Source of the DNA: Aurantibacillus circumpalustris
GTDB lineage: Bacteria > Bacteroidota > Bacteroidia > B-17B0 > Aurantibacillaceae
Reading direction: 5' to 3'
Assembly (NCBI RefSeq): GCF_029625215.1
Contig: NZ_CP121197.1
Coordinates: 806,001-870,000 of the forward strand
DNA length: 64,000 bases
Shown here: positions 3,515-53,633 of the stretch, piece after piece
Numbering within the stretch: the first letter of the stretch is position 1
Layout of the letters: the number at the start of each line of letters is the position of its first letter
The notes under the pieces: model-generated
Seen by the model: only the letters and a program-made list of their open reading frames with translations
Told to the model about the DNA's origin: nothing
Database searches by the model: none
Position numbers and translations under genes: made by a program

Positions 3515-4144
3515 TTAGTCGAATTTTTTGGCAATTAAAACTAAATCCATTGTTTCGGCTTCGGGAAATGCTTTACGTTCTGTGTAAATAAGGCTGAATC
3601 CATTGTTTTGTAGCGCTTCTTGAAGATAATCAGCTTGGTGATAATGAATGAACATTTCATCTTTTCCATCACTTGATTTTTTTAATCCTGACTTTTCATA
3701 ATCGTCTTCCATGGTGCTTATATATAAAAGGCCACCCTTCTTCAAAAGCTCGGAAGAATTTCTTATAAGATCTATAGCTTCTTCTTTTGTAAGATATGGT
3801 AAACAAAAGCCGCACATGATTGCGTCAAACTTTTTGTTTAATGAATCTATGTTTCTACAATCCATTTCTTTAAACTCCGCGCTTGGATTATTTTCTTGCG
3901 CCAGTTCAAGCATTTTAAGCGCAAGGTCAATTCCTAAAATTTTAAGATCTGGCTTTTGTTTTAAAAGATACTTGGTAATGTTGCCAGGACCGCAGGCTAC
4001 GTCAAGTAACTCAGCACTATTTTTGGTTATGTGAGAACAAAACAAATCAAAAGTATCGTTGTAGAGATCAAAGTCCATAAACCTTTCTTGATAATCATTT
4101 GCTCGTCTATCAAAAATTTCTACCGCTATTTTTGTTTTATTCAT
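3515..4144 (-). CDS. Class I SAM-dependent methyltransferase
   Basis: A 209-residue Rossmann-fold methyltransferase. Motif I reads LLDVACGPGNITKYLL (residues ~42-57), the acidic end of strand beta2 is GIDLALKMLE, and a post-motif MDCRNID and GFCLPYL follow, the usual order for the Methyltransf_11/25 type. The substrate cannot be inferred: it has no extra domain, and its neighbours (KdnB-like dehydrogenase 17 bases upstream, AsmA-like gene downstream) only suggest an envelope connection. Confidence 0.85.
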   Translation of the reverse strand: MNKTKIAVEIFDRRANDYQERFMDFDLYNDTFDLFCSHITKNSAELLDVACGPGNITKYLLKQKPDLKILGIDLALKMLELAQENNPSAEFKEMDCRNIDSLNKKFDAIMCGFCLPYLTKEEAIDLIRNSSELLKKGGLLYISTMEDDYEKSGLKKSSDGKDEMFIHYHQADYLQEALQNNGFSLIYTERKAFPEAETMDLVLIAKKFD

Positions 4145-4161
4145 AGATAAAAAAATTTGTT

Positions 4162-5244
4162 CTAGAGTCTCCTAAACAAATCTTTAATATAGTCCATCGT
4201 GGCAATCTCTTTATAATTCTCGCCAAAGGCATGGTTCCACATAAAAGGTAAATTGTAACTTACGGTTGCCATCTTATCGAGCGTTTCTTCGTCCCAATCT
4301 TTGCTTAAATTTTGAGGAAGTGTGATCTCATGCTTTTTAATCATTTGCATAAACTCACTATGGCCTTGCGGGTAAATATCTGCCAGGTGCTGGAAGATCA
4401 CACAGTTTGCATAACAATGTCTGGTACCATGAATTTTTGATAAACCATAGCTCAAAGCATGGCATACACCCACTTCGCTGTAGGTTAAACTTAAGCCGCC
4501 CATTAATGATGCTACCATTAATATATCATCATTCTCAGGCGAACGGCCAGACTTTTCATTCAAATACACCTCACGACATAAATGCAAAGCCTGATCACCA
4601 TACGCTAAACTAAATGCGTTATTGCGAATACCGTTATGAGATTCGATACAATGAATGTATGTATCCATACCCGTATAAAACCACCAATCGGTTGGTACGC
4701 TAGCAATTAACTCAGGATCTAAAATAACTTGATTGAAAACCGTCCAATCACATTTTAAACCCAATTTCTTTTCAGGACCCGTAAGTACTGCTGTCATGGA
4801 CACTTCAGCACCTGTACCGGAAATTGTTGGTACGCCTAAATGGTAAATTCCAGGCTTTTTAATAAGATTCAATCCTTGGTACAAAGTAGAAGAACCTTCG
4901 TTGGTAACCATTAAGGATAAGGCTTTTGCGATGTCCATAATACTTCCACCACCAATTCCAATAATGCCACTTGGTAATCCTTTTTTAGAAAGAATTTCTT
5001 CGCGCAAACTATCAATTTGATCAGTAGTTGGCTCGTAGGAATCTACATCTACAAAAAAGACAAGGTCTTCTTGTTTATTTTGAAGTTTATTACTAAGAGG
5101 TTTTCCTTTAAAATAATTATCGACTATAAAAACAAAATACTTATTGTTTTCTTTTCTAATAGGTGCAATGGTTTCATCTAACTGTGAAAATGAACCACGG
5201 CCATAAGTAACGCGATCAATGTTTTTGAAATTTTTGTGTGTCAT
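4162..5244 (-). CDS. kdnB: Iron-containing alcohol dehydrogenase, KdnB-like (3-deoxy-manno-octulosonate 8-oxidase)
   Basis: A 360-residue group III (iron-containing) alcohol dehydrogenase. It has the NAD(P)-binding GIGGGSIMDIAKALSL (residues ~96-111), GTGAEVS (~143-149), and metal ligands at D194, H198, H262 and H276, the same spacing as lactaldehyde reductase FucO. From memory, the start (THKNFKNIDRVTYGRGSF) and the segment WFYTGMDTYIHCIES closely resemble Shewanella KdnB, which oxidises Kdo at C8 so that the aminotransferase KdnA can make 8-amino-Kdo for LPS. No kdnA-like gene is in this window, so the assignment rests on similarity alone. It starts 15 bases after the superoxide dismutase gene. 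Confidence 0.72.
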   Translation of the reverse strand: MTHKNFKNIDRVTYGRGSFSQLDETIAPIRKENNKYFVFIVDNYFKGKPLSNKLQNKQEDLVFFVDVDSYEPTTDQIDSLREEILSKKGLPSGIIGIGGGSIMDIAKALSLMVTNEGSSTLYQGLNLIKKPGIYHLGVPTISGTGAEVSMTAVLTGPEKKLGLKCDWTVFNQVILDPELIASVPTDWWFYTGMDTYIHCIESHNGIRNNAFSLAYGDQALHLCREVYLNEKSGRSPENDDILMVASLMGGLSLTYSEVGVCHALSYGLSKIHGTRHCYANCVIFQHLADIYPQGHSEFMQMIKKHEITLPQNLSKDWDEETLDKMATVSYNLPFMWNHAFGENYKEIATMDYIKDLFRRL

Positions 5245-50555: not shown

Positions 50556-51143
50556 ATGTTTACAGGAATTATTGAAACACTTGCAAAAGTTGAAAAAATA
50601 GAAAAAGAAAATTCCAATGTGCATTTTACTTTTTCGAGTGCAATTACTAACGAATTAAAAATTGATCAAAGCATTGCGCATAATGGCGTTTGCTTGACTG
50701 TTGTTCGAATTGAAGGAGATAACTATACTGTTACCGCCATTGATGAAACTTTAAAAAGAACCAATCTCAGTGATTTAAATTTGGGTTCACTTGTAAACCT
50801 TGAACGCTGCATGCCCGCTAATGGTCGCTTCGACGGACATATAGTGCAAGGACATGTTGACGCAACCGGAATTTGCAAGGAAGTGAAAAATCTAAATGGC
50901 AGCTGGGAGTTTGTTTTTGAGCACGAAAAAAATAAAACCAACATCACTGTTGAAAAAGGAAGTATTACAATTAACGGAGTTAGTTTAACCGTTGTAAAAT
51001 CAACAGAAACTACTTTTTCTGTGCACATTATCCCCTATACATTTGAGAATACTAATTTTAATACCTTTAAACCTGGTTCAAAAATAAATTTAGAATTTGA
51101 TGTGATTGGAAAATATGTCGCAAAACTGCTTGGTAAAAATTAA
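50556..51143 (+). CDS. ribE: Riboflavin synthase, alpha subunit
   Basis: A 195-residue riboflavin synthase that dismutates two lumazines to riboflavin. It starts with the conserved MFTGIIE, and the two homologous lumazine-binding halves are visible (IAHNGVCLTV and GSITINGVSLTV). GHIVQGHVDATG marks the first-half active site. The length is normal. It follows the TlpA-like gene by four bases and converges on a small minus-strand gene. No FMN riboswitch was seen upstream. Confidence 0.96.
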   Translation: MFTGIIETLAKVEKIEKENSNVHFTFSSAITNELKIDQSIAHNGVCLTVVRIEGDNYTVTAIDETLKRTNLSDLNLGSLVNLERCMPANGRFDGHIVQGHVDATGICKEVKNLNGSWEFVFEHEKNKTNITVEKGSITINGVSLTVVKSTETTFSVHIIPYTFENTNFNTFKPGSKINLEFDVIGKYVAKLLGKN

Positions 51144-51146
51144 ATC

Positions 51147-51359
51147 CTAGTTGCTTTTTAGCATTCCGAAAATTTGCAGAATTCCCCACAGAAACAGCGC
51201 AAGTAACACAAGAAAAAACAAACCCTTTAGTTTTGCTTTAAAACCATTAGAGGGGCTAGAGGGGCTTATTTGCTCTTCATTATCAATCTCTTCAGTCGAC
51301 TCAAGGCCTCTTTCTTTTCTAAGTCGAGAAAGAAATTCTTCTTTGGTTTCCTCTTGCAT
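51147..51359 (-). CDS. Small membrane protein, 70 residues
   Basis: A short protein with an acidic N-terminus (MQEETKEEFLSRLRKERGLE), a Ser/Pro linker and one C-terminal membrane helix (LKGLFFLVLLALFLWGILQI, ~44-63). I do not recognise a family. The layout is plausible for a single-pass tail-anchored protein. It converges on ribE three bases from its stop and marks the edge of the decay zone. Confidence 0.55.
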   Translation of the reverse strand: MQEETKEEFLSRLRKERGLESTEEIDNEEQISPSSPSNGFKAKLKGLFFLVLLALFLWGILQIFGMLKSN

Positions 51360-51417
51360 ACTTAACTTGCTTACAAGTTAATACACTTAAAATTAAGAGT
51401 GGTTCAGTCCTTTTAAA

Positions 51418-51561
51418 TTAATTTAATACTAATGGACAGTTATTGTTTTTATTCACGAACAATTTTTTTGTGCTGCTCACTCTGTTATAAATAATTTTCA
51501 CAAAATAAAGTCCTTTGCTTTGCAAACTTAGGTCGAAAATTGCCTTAATTACGCAAGTCTC
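51418..51561 (-). pseudogene. C-terminal fragment of a type IX secretion cargo gene
   Basis: A 47-codon open stretch, closed upstream by a stop at 51562-51564, reads IFDLSLQSKGLYFVKII and SSTKKLFVNKNN before its stop. This is the end of a type IX (Por) sorting domain: the KGLYFVKI strand and a final basic beta strand. No start codon, signal peptide or upstream coding region remains, so the rest of the gene has been lost. Confidence 0.6.
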
Positions 51562-51586
51562 TTAAGGAACTGACAGGGTCAAAAAG

Positions 51587-51615
51587 AAAAAGGGAACCAA
51601 ATTGGTTCCCTTTTT
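51587..51615. terminator. Bidirectional hairpin terminator
   Basis: AAAAAGGGAACCAA (51587-51600) and TTGGTTCCCTTTTT (51602-51615) form a near-perfect palindrome with T runs on both strands. On the minus strand it precedes the type IX fragment; on the plus strand it lies upstream of the promoter of the broken nuclease-like gene. Confidence 0.65.
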
Positions 51616-51642
51616 AATTAATTCATTGTCAGTATTTTGTAT

Positions 51643-51672
51643 TTTGATTACCCTCTTTTTCAAGTATCTTTA
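51643..51672 (+). promoter_or_regulatory. Candidate promoter of the broken nuclease-like gene
   Basis: TTTG (51643-51646) and TATCTTTA (51665-51672) are separated by 18 bases, close to the phylum consensus. The ATG at 51711 follows by 38 bases. A preserved promoter suggests recent inactivation. Confidence 0.45.
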
Positions 51673-51710
51673 TGATGACGGATTAATCATAGAACGGAAT
51701 CTGTATTTTA

Positions 51711-52911
51711 ATGAATGCATTACCTATCCTAACTTTTAAGGATGTTTTTCCGAATGAAGAAGTGCCAAACTTGGAAGAATTACTTAAGCAAGCTGGCTCT
51801 GAACGAGTGCTAGACTGTCTGTGTTATATAGTCGCCCAGCTTCATTTGAATCCTTACGATCAAAGGCAATAAAAGTTCATTTTGGGATATCTCTGCAACC
51901 TTCAGCCATCAGAGTTTAAATTAAAAATTGGAGCTGGCCTAGATAAAACGTTTGGACCCGATAGAGATACTGATAGCAACCCGAACCAAAGACAAATATT
52001 AGCGTTTTCTACTCATTCGGTGCTCACCATGATAACCATTCTACTTAGAAACAAAATTATACATCTTATTCAGAAAGAAGCGACAAAGGAAGAACAATTC
52101 TTGTCTCTAGCAGAAAAGCGTATGGTTCTCACTGCTAACCTGATCGCTAAAGAATACGTGAATAAAACTCCTGCGATTCCAGACGGTCTCACTAATTACA
52201 CGGAACTAGTCTGTGCTCATTTCTGGCCAAATCTTATAAACACTCATGAACTACTGACAAGGATGTAAGGGTAATTGACGAATCTGAAAAGAAAAACCAG
52301 GACTTCTATGTAAGTAGAAATAACAAAATCATCCTTATTGAATTTAAAGATGCCCCGATGCGGAAGTTTGATACTTATAAAGAGATAAAGAATCAAATTG
52401 ATAGTAAGTTGAATCAGGTAAACAAGGGGACTGGACAACTAAAGAGTTTGATAAACTAGAAACTAACATTAACATCTTTGAGTCGGCTGATTCAAAACTA
52501 AATCCTGCTGACATTGTTGTTTATCCAATGATTGTAGTGACAGAGCCATTATTTGCTGTTTCTGGTGCTGTTCAGCACCTCAATAAAGAACTTATTAAAC
52601 GAATAGGAAATATCAAGTATTCCTTTGCCGTTAAACCTTTAGTTTTGGTGGACCAAGATTTTTTCTTGGGTACTCATGACCTTTTCAAATTTGGAAAAGC
52701 TGATTTATTTGACTGTATCGAATATTATTATGAAAAGGATGCGCAAGCAAATAGCTCGCCACATAACCCAACTAGTTATGACTTCAGCTTTTTAAACGGT
52801 TTTCCTCAACATTTAAGTCACATATTTCCTGAATTTGATAGTTCAGCATTCAGCACATCAGGGACTTTAGCAAATATTGTATCCACAAAATTAACCCTCC
52901 AAAAGAAATAA
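51711..52911 (+). pseudogene. Broken ~400-codon gene with PD-(D/E)XK nuclease-like core
   Basis: Three reading frames join into one protein. Segment 1 (51711-52265) begins MNALPILTFKDVFPNEEVP; an in-frame TAA at 51870 (CAA to TAA is the simplest change) separates LNPYDQRQ from KFILGYLCNLQPS. Near 52250 the frame shifts, and the text resumes as TDKDVRVIDESEKKNQ. Near 52426 (a GGGG run) it shifts again into DWTTKEFDKLE and continues to 52911. Segment 2 contains DFYVSRNNKIILIEFKDA, a D-x12-E-x-K pattern flanked by beta strands, as in PD-(D/E)XK nucleases. The family is not one I recognise. Short ORFs at 51882-52268 and 52528-52911 are pieces of it, not separate genes. Confidence 0.7.
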
Positions 52912-52912
52912 G

Positions 52913-53014
52913 ATGGATTCTACTAGAGTTGAAATAAGCAGTAAATCGCTTGATGCACTAATCAAGGGGATTGTCGATAAGAGTGCAACAAATCTATTCA
53001 TAGCAGCAAAGTAA
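52913..53014 (+). pseudogene. 33-codon stub after the broken nuclease-like gene
   Basis: An ATG two bases after the previous stop opens a 33-codon frame (MDSTRVEISSKSLDALIKG, ending NLFIAAK). The composition is coding-like, and the tight spacing resembles the second gene of an operon. It stops too early to be a recognisable domain. It may be the N-terminal remnant of a partner gene, or simply a small peptide. Confidence 0.4.
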
Positions 53015-53135
53015 ATGATAATTTACCATGATTTTTAAAACTATACATTTTAACTTTAATTTCTTTAAGCAGTTTGCCAGCGGTAACTTTGAGTTTGTGA
53101 GAAGTGAATTTCAGTTTATCTTCAATTTTTTTTAA

Positions 53136-53633
53136 CTAAAAAAGTCTTTTCTTCAGTACACTTTTTAAGACTTCTGTTATTTTCAACACCGCTGGACAAA
53201 CCAAAGTGTTTCTATAAGTAATGTCTAAAATCTGATGCATTTTTTTTCTATTGGTATGCGGGTATTCGCGACAAGCTGTTGGACGACTTTCGTATATAGA
53301 ACAATAGTTTTCTTTATCTAAAAAAGGACAAGGGGCTTTTTGTAAAACAAAATCTCCCTCTTCGTCCATAAAAAGATAGGTTTGAATAAAGTTGCCAGGT
53401 TTAATTTTGAGTGCCTCTGCAGCGCGCTCTATATCGCGTTGATAAAATATAGGTGAAGTTGTTTTACAACAATTAGCACAGGCTAAACAATTTGTATTTT
53501 GAAATACCTCTTCGTGGGCTTTGTGAAAAATTTTATCTAAATTTTTCGGAGGCTTACCTTTGAGTTTTTTAAAATAGGTTTGATTGCTTTTTTTCTGTTG
53601 CTCAGCCTTTTTATTAAAATCCTCAAGATTCAT
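53136..53633 (-). CDS. YkgJ-family cysteine cluster protein
   Basis: A 165-residue protein with the Fe/Zn-type cysteine cluster of the YkgJ (CxxCxxCC) family: CLACANCCK at ~49-57, then CPFLDKENYCSIYESRP and TACREYP, and a late C in TLVCPAV. Function of the family is unproven; metal-dependent roles are proposed. There is no signal peptide. It is the gene before bTHX in the same direction, 45 bases apart. Confidence 0.88.
   Translation of the reverse strand: MNLEDFNKKAEQQKKSNQTYFKKLKGKPPKNLDKIFHKAHEEVFQNTNCLACANCCKTTSPIFYQRDIERAAEALKIKPGNFIQTYLFMDEEGDFVLQKAPCPFLDKENYCSIYESRPTACREYPHTNRKKMHQILDITYRNTLVCPAVLKITEVLKSVLKKRLF

Follow-up and report, generated by a model that had tools for sequence, protein, structure and literature searches.

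The window analysed here is a stretch of 64,000 nucleotides from Aurantibacillus circumpalustris, which carries at positions 51711-52911 of the forward strand three pieces of one broken gene, each in a different reading frame (Table 1). The pieces are collinear on a single family profile made from 45 full-length relatives. Piece A, in frame 1, starts with the ATG at 51711 and remains open up to 52268 apart from an internal TAA; piece B, in frame 3, carries the peptide TDKDVRVIDE and the codon of an invariant glutamine (52436-52438); piece C, in frame 2, carries the peptide FDKLE and ends at the TAA at 52909-52911. The first 47 amino acids of piece A can be aligned securely with an intact protein from the same genus (score 87, as against 36 ± 5 for shuffled sequences), while beyond residue 47 the alignment depends on how piece A as a whole matches the profile. 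A whole-genome search revealed no second copy of the nuclease gene in the closed 4.6-Mb genome to which the window belongs.

Table 1 Features of the broken gene and its surroundings (positions within the window)
Feature	Positions	Strand	Basis or remark
Left conserved flank: riboflavin synthase alpha chain, ribE	50556-51143	+	Lum_binding 1.5e-47; synteny
Variable content of the ribE-ykgJ gap	51220-53170		Without DNA similarity to the interval in relatives
Strong inverted repeat ahead of the gene, its tail terminator-like	51587-51615	-	
Possible Bacteroidetes-type promoter, TTTG-N18-TATCTTTA	51643-51672	+	Not above chance
Piece A: N-terminal part, all-helical domain	51711-52268	+	Profile positions 8-170, E 5e-10
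In-frame TAA stop, codon 54	51870-51872	+	
Deletion scar, which also shifts the frame	52250-52268	+	Profile positions 171-355 missing between A and B; two open frames overlap
Piece B: start of nuclease domain, D-x12-E-x-K and invariant Q	52250-52456	+	Profile positions 356-410, E 5e-9
Region of second frame change	52439-52459	+	Q and next L still in frame 3; homology in frame 2 starts after it
Piece C: remaining nuclease domain and C-terminus	52460-52911	+	Profile positions 433-525, E 3e-17
Right conserved flank: CxxCxxCC (YkgJ-type) protein	53136-53633	-	PF03692 7.9e-15; in 39 of 40 same-genus genomes

A reading of the sequence alone had described a gene of about 400 codons, split by one stop and two frameshifts, with flanking text that joins cleanly. 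The TAA and the two changes of frame were found as described, but the first of these changes is better regarded as the scar of a deletion of about 185 codons than as a small frameshift, because profile positions 171-355 are missing from the remnant and the open frames of pieces A and B overlap at 52250-52268 only. As compared to the full-length relatives some 555 bp are absent at this junction, where the text therefore has no clean join, and the missing stretch includes residues that are conserved in 39-44 of the 45 proteins (D269, P277, F304 and F-S-E at 332). The deletion took away the latter half of the helical domain together with the lead-in to the nuclease, about one third of the gene. 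Judging by the lengths of the relatives, the original gene would have had about 550-600 codons instead of 400. The most likely place of the second frame change is about 52439-52459, since frame 3 still encodes the invariant glutamine and the next conserved leucine; this placement is derived from few residues and is less certain than that of the first. The GGGG run at 52426-52429, at which a read error had been suspected, lies upstream of this region and is probably not the lesion. The locus is a well-supported true pseudogene of a gene of about 570 codons and, because of the stop, the frameshift and the deletion of about 555 bp taken together, no active enzyme can be formed in this genome. The case also illustrates that a large deletion can be mistaken for a small frameshift if no relative is at hand for comparison.

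The good promoter that was thought to be still in place ahead of the gene is weakly supported: it comes down to one match to the Bacteroidetes-type pattern, of which the window contains 16 copies where 11.8 are expected, which is no commoner than chance, and a sigma-70-like site was not found on the + strand ahead of the broken gene.

The gene occupies a site between ribE and ykgJ where DNA similarity to relatives ends at about 51176-51218 and returns at about 53171. Both flanks were located in ten same-genus genomes, in which ribE and the CxxCxxCC gene are separated by anything between about 16 bp and about 4.6 kb, with different genes in the gap. Genome G030 has kept the CxxCxxCC gene and a gene for a 70-aa protein, and here ORFs of 494, 267 and 502 amino acids lie between the two. 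Among the same-genus genomes compared, the nuclease is present at this site in the window genome only. The comparison supports the view that the gap is a site at which content is likely exchanged, and the earlier term replacement hotspot seems a fair one. No integrase or repeat that would show how the content is exchanged was found at the site. The 70-aa protein, which has a hydrophobic C-terminal stretch, is encoded beside ribE in the window as well (51147-51359, - strand), and it occurs in 3 of 40 same-genus genomes. An ORF for a lipoprotein-like protein of about 142 amino acids adjoins the CxxCxxCC gene in six relatives (L095, L096, L097, L099, L100 and L103); in the window genome it is absent from the gap and a 43% identical copy is found elsewhere. 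A 33-aa ORF directly downstream of the pseudogene (52913-53014) was considered as a possible remnant of a partner gene: its best matches are located inside two ATPase-like proteins, with E values of 0.02-0.04 per genome in 297 genomes, which is within chance.

Peptide-pattern scans with the remnant alone gave no match in genome contigs or viral contigs. A whole-genome search revealed one intact homologue of 575 amino acids in the same genus, which is the protein nearest to the remnant (35% identity over the nuclease part), and by way of this protein a relative was found in another genus of the same taxonomic family. The search for intact homologues, which had been proposed as a check, in the end yielded 45 distinct full-length relatives of 516-623 amino acids, all in Bacteroidota. 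Their distribution is patchy: relatives occur in 15 of 395 Bacteroidota genomes, the window's own counted, and in 2 of 40 genomes of the same genus. The genome collection contributed 31 contigs with relatives. Matches on plasmids were restricted to Hymenobacter, where the copies are annotated as hypothetical proteins, and none of the phage records searched encodes a relative. The plasmid copy of Hymenobacter sp. BRD67 (L005, 3000-4660; L055) is split into two ORFs and is another decayed or split member.

When 33 members were scanned singly, any given family of Pfam, NCBIfam, PADLOC or PHROGs was matched by two of them at most. With PADLOC 2.0, neither the remnant nor the intact relative matched any family, and among the 33 members there were two weak single-member matches. 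Sequence searches of the PDB gave no match for the family, and literature searches yielded no paper that names it. Thus, as had been surmised, the intact family can be regarded as undescribed in the curated libraries that were searched. Although the remnant itself is dead, at least 45 full-length relatives came to light through it, and these have no match in any of the curated libraries tested.

The D-x12-E-x-K core from which a nuclease had been proposed is borne out by the relatives, which share the motif P-D-x-Y-x-R-x(n)-E-x-K-D. In the numbering of the 575-aa homologue, D365, E378, K380, Q410 and P442 are invariant in all 45, and all five are kept in the remnant, which deviates elsewhere, for instance at the well conserved R369 and N457. 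The alignment thus displays, in apparently catalytic positions, the conserved D...(D/E)-x-K signature of the PD-(D/E)XK superfamily. The fold was predicted with AlphaFold, and confident models were obtained both for the intact homologue (pLDDT 82.5, pTM 0.83) and for its last 264 residues (pLDDT 84.7, pTM 0.81). In these models the N-terminal part is helical and is followed by a core of strands and helices. The core contains a hairpin (strands 366-370 and 373-380) with the aspartate ahead of the first strand and E-x-K at the end of the second, and as predicted it has the alpha-beta-beta-beta-alpha-beta order of the superfamily.

With these models no Foldseek match reached E 0.001 and a viral fold search gave none below E 0.4. 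In a VIA-align comparison of the domain alone, the first 14 rows of solved structures were FokI/BspD6I-type enzymes, Upx, HindIII, McrC, Cdn1 and Avs4, with Z values of 6-9 that are modest and barely above the level of models without a clear match. Weak profile matches of single members lead in this direction too (NERD 4e-4, L_protein_N 3e-4, and SduA_C 0.009 for the window protein). The PD-(D/E)XK fold is supported, because the identity of the top rows is consistent and the motif is invariant, even though Z itself is modest. The models agree with the proposed nuclease core, and they support the description of the family as predicted PD-(D/E)XK nucleases with a helical N-terminal domain.

Intact copies, the neighbours of which the sequence-only reading had advised to inspect, often reside in surroundings rich in defence genes and mobile elements. 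At E 1e-8, the 75 genes beside 30 intact copies gave matches to 300 PADLOC families, as compared to 62 for 75 control genes taken from elsewhere, mostly in the same genomes. What is counted here is families and not genes, and a single protein can be described by several of them, so that the difference should be read as an indication rather than as a statistic. The leading PADLOC matches were models for type I restriction-modification methyltransferases and specificity subunits, pAgo and SIR2-Ago, and Pfam matches among the neighbours included integrases, resolvases, RadC and AbiE. At single loci a SIR2, ABC-3C or AbiE gene adjoins: a SIR2-domain gene precedes the same-genus homologue, and an ABC-3C gene is located near another relative. 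Many Hymenobacter copies adjoin copper-handling genes instead of defence genes. The intact protein probably acts alone, because no partner gene recurs among the 30 loci outside the Aequorivita group. In that group (L052, L054, L058, L059 and L060; 6944-7738) a 264-aa gene that starts ...CFIDILGF... follows within 14 bp after the nuclease; it is a possible partner, and its representative has no Pfam match. Directly upstream of the homologue from the other genus (L033) a 397-aa protein without Pfam match is encoded (3686-4876).

On balance, the locus is quite probably a decayed copy of a stand-alone, horizontally spread PD-(D/E)XK effector with a helical N-terminal domain that acted against phages or plasmids. 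In the intact protein an all-helical N-terminal domain of about 300 residues would be followed by the nuclease domain; the helical part may sense an infection cue or a partner, after which the nuclease part, whose metal site would consist of Asp, Glu and Lys, would cleave nucleic acid, DNA being the most likely substrate. The sensing role and DNA as substrate are suggested by the architecture and the neighbours, and the neighbourhoods of the intact relatives make it reasonable to infer that a defence function was lost from this genome. For the intact proteins, an RNA substrate or a role in the upkeep of plasmids or transposons may also be envisaged.

Other explanations of the same observations were weighed. 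If the lesions were due to errors in sequencing or assembly, the gene could still be intact in the cell, and single-base frame changes are indeed typical of long-read errors, the genome being one closed contig. However, the loss of about 185 codons relative to 45 proteins cannot be produced by base errors, the stop and the other frame change are lesions independent of it, the genes around it in the window are undamaged, and there is no second copy in the genome, so that the read error against which re-sequencing had been advised is extremely improbable. It is rather unlikely that the gene encoded a FokI/BspD6I-like restriction endonuclease devoid of its methyltransferase, instead of an effector that is triggered by infection: even though the closest folds are the cleavage domains of FokI and BspD6I and type I restriction-modification genes are found beside some relatives, no methyltransferase consistently adjoins in the 30 loci, and the N-terminal part is all helical and gave no match to a DNA-recognition domain.

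The Hymenobacter plasmid copies lie near the conjugation genes traM and traN, and integrases lie near other copies, as could be expected if the protein were a maintenance or toxin-like nuclease of plasmids or integrative elements and not a host defence gene. A consistent antitoxin-like partner is lacking across the relatives, however, and defence-type neighbours dominate elsewhere, which makes such a function improbable.

A comparison of the intact proteins with known nuclease systems shows to what extent they resemble any of these. A linked cognate methyltransferase, as in type II and IIS restriction systems, does not recur, and restriction-modification genes occur at few loci only. The best structural matches are the cleavage domains of FokI, Nt.BspD6I and R.BspD6I2 (Z 8.7-9.3 over 149-184 residues, rmsd 3.4-4.7); the family differs from these by an identity of only 7-13%, by the helical nature of the rest of the protein and by the absence of a constant methyltransferase partner. 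McrC, Can2/Card1, Avs4, HamA and LmuA contain PD-(D/E)XK-type domains of defence proteins that resemble the nuclease domain with Z values of 4.6-6.4, whereas they have no profile match in common with the family in Pfam, NCBIfam or PADLOC.

Shedu SduA (PF14082) has a C-terminal PD-(D/E)XK domain in a single-gene architecture. The family shares this arrangement, and SduA compares to the nuclease domain with a Z of 5.2-5.6, which is below several other families of the fold. Membership was rejected: the remnant scores 16.6 bits against a cut-off of 27 for SduA_C (PF14082), and none of the 33 relatives scores.

The likeness that extends over both parts of the protein is that to Upx (PDB 9wuf), where residues 6-489 of the model, with helical and nuclease parts, superimpose weakly on residues 735-1268 of the chain (Z 6.8, rmsd 8.7); the nuclease domain alone gives a Z of 6.6 with 16% identity. 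Upx differs in that it has more than 1200 residues and no sequence-profile match to the family. It is quite possible, if somewhat less likely than not, that the intact proteins constitute an undescribed single-gene anti-phage system of Bacteroidota in which a helical sensor domain is fused to a PD-(D/E)XK nuclease, perhaps distantly akin to Upx in architecture. Should the relatives prove to be a defence system, it would be a short one, encoded by a single gene and open to direct testing in a laboratory strain.
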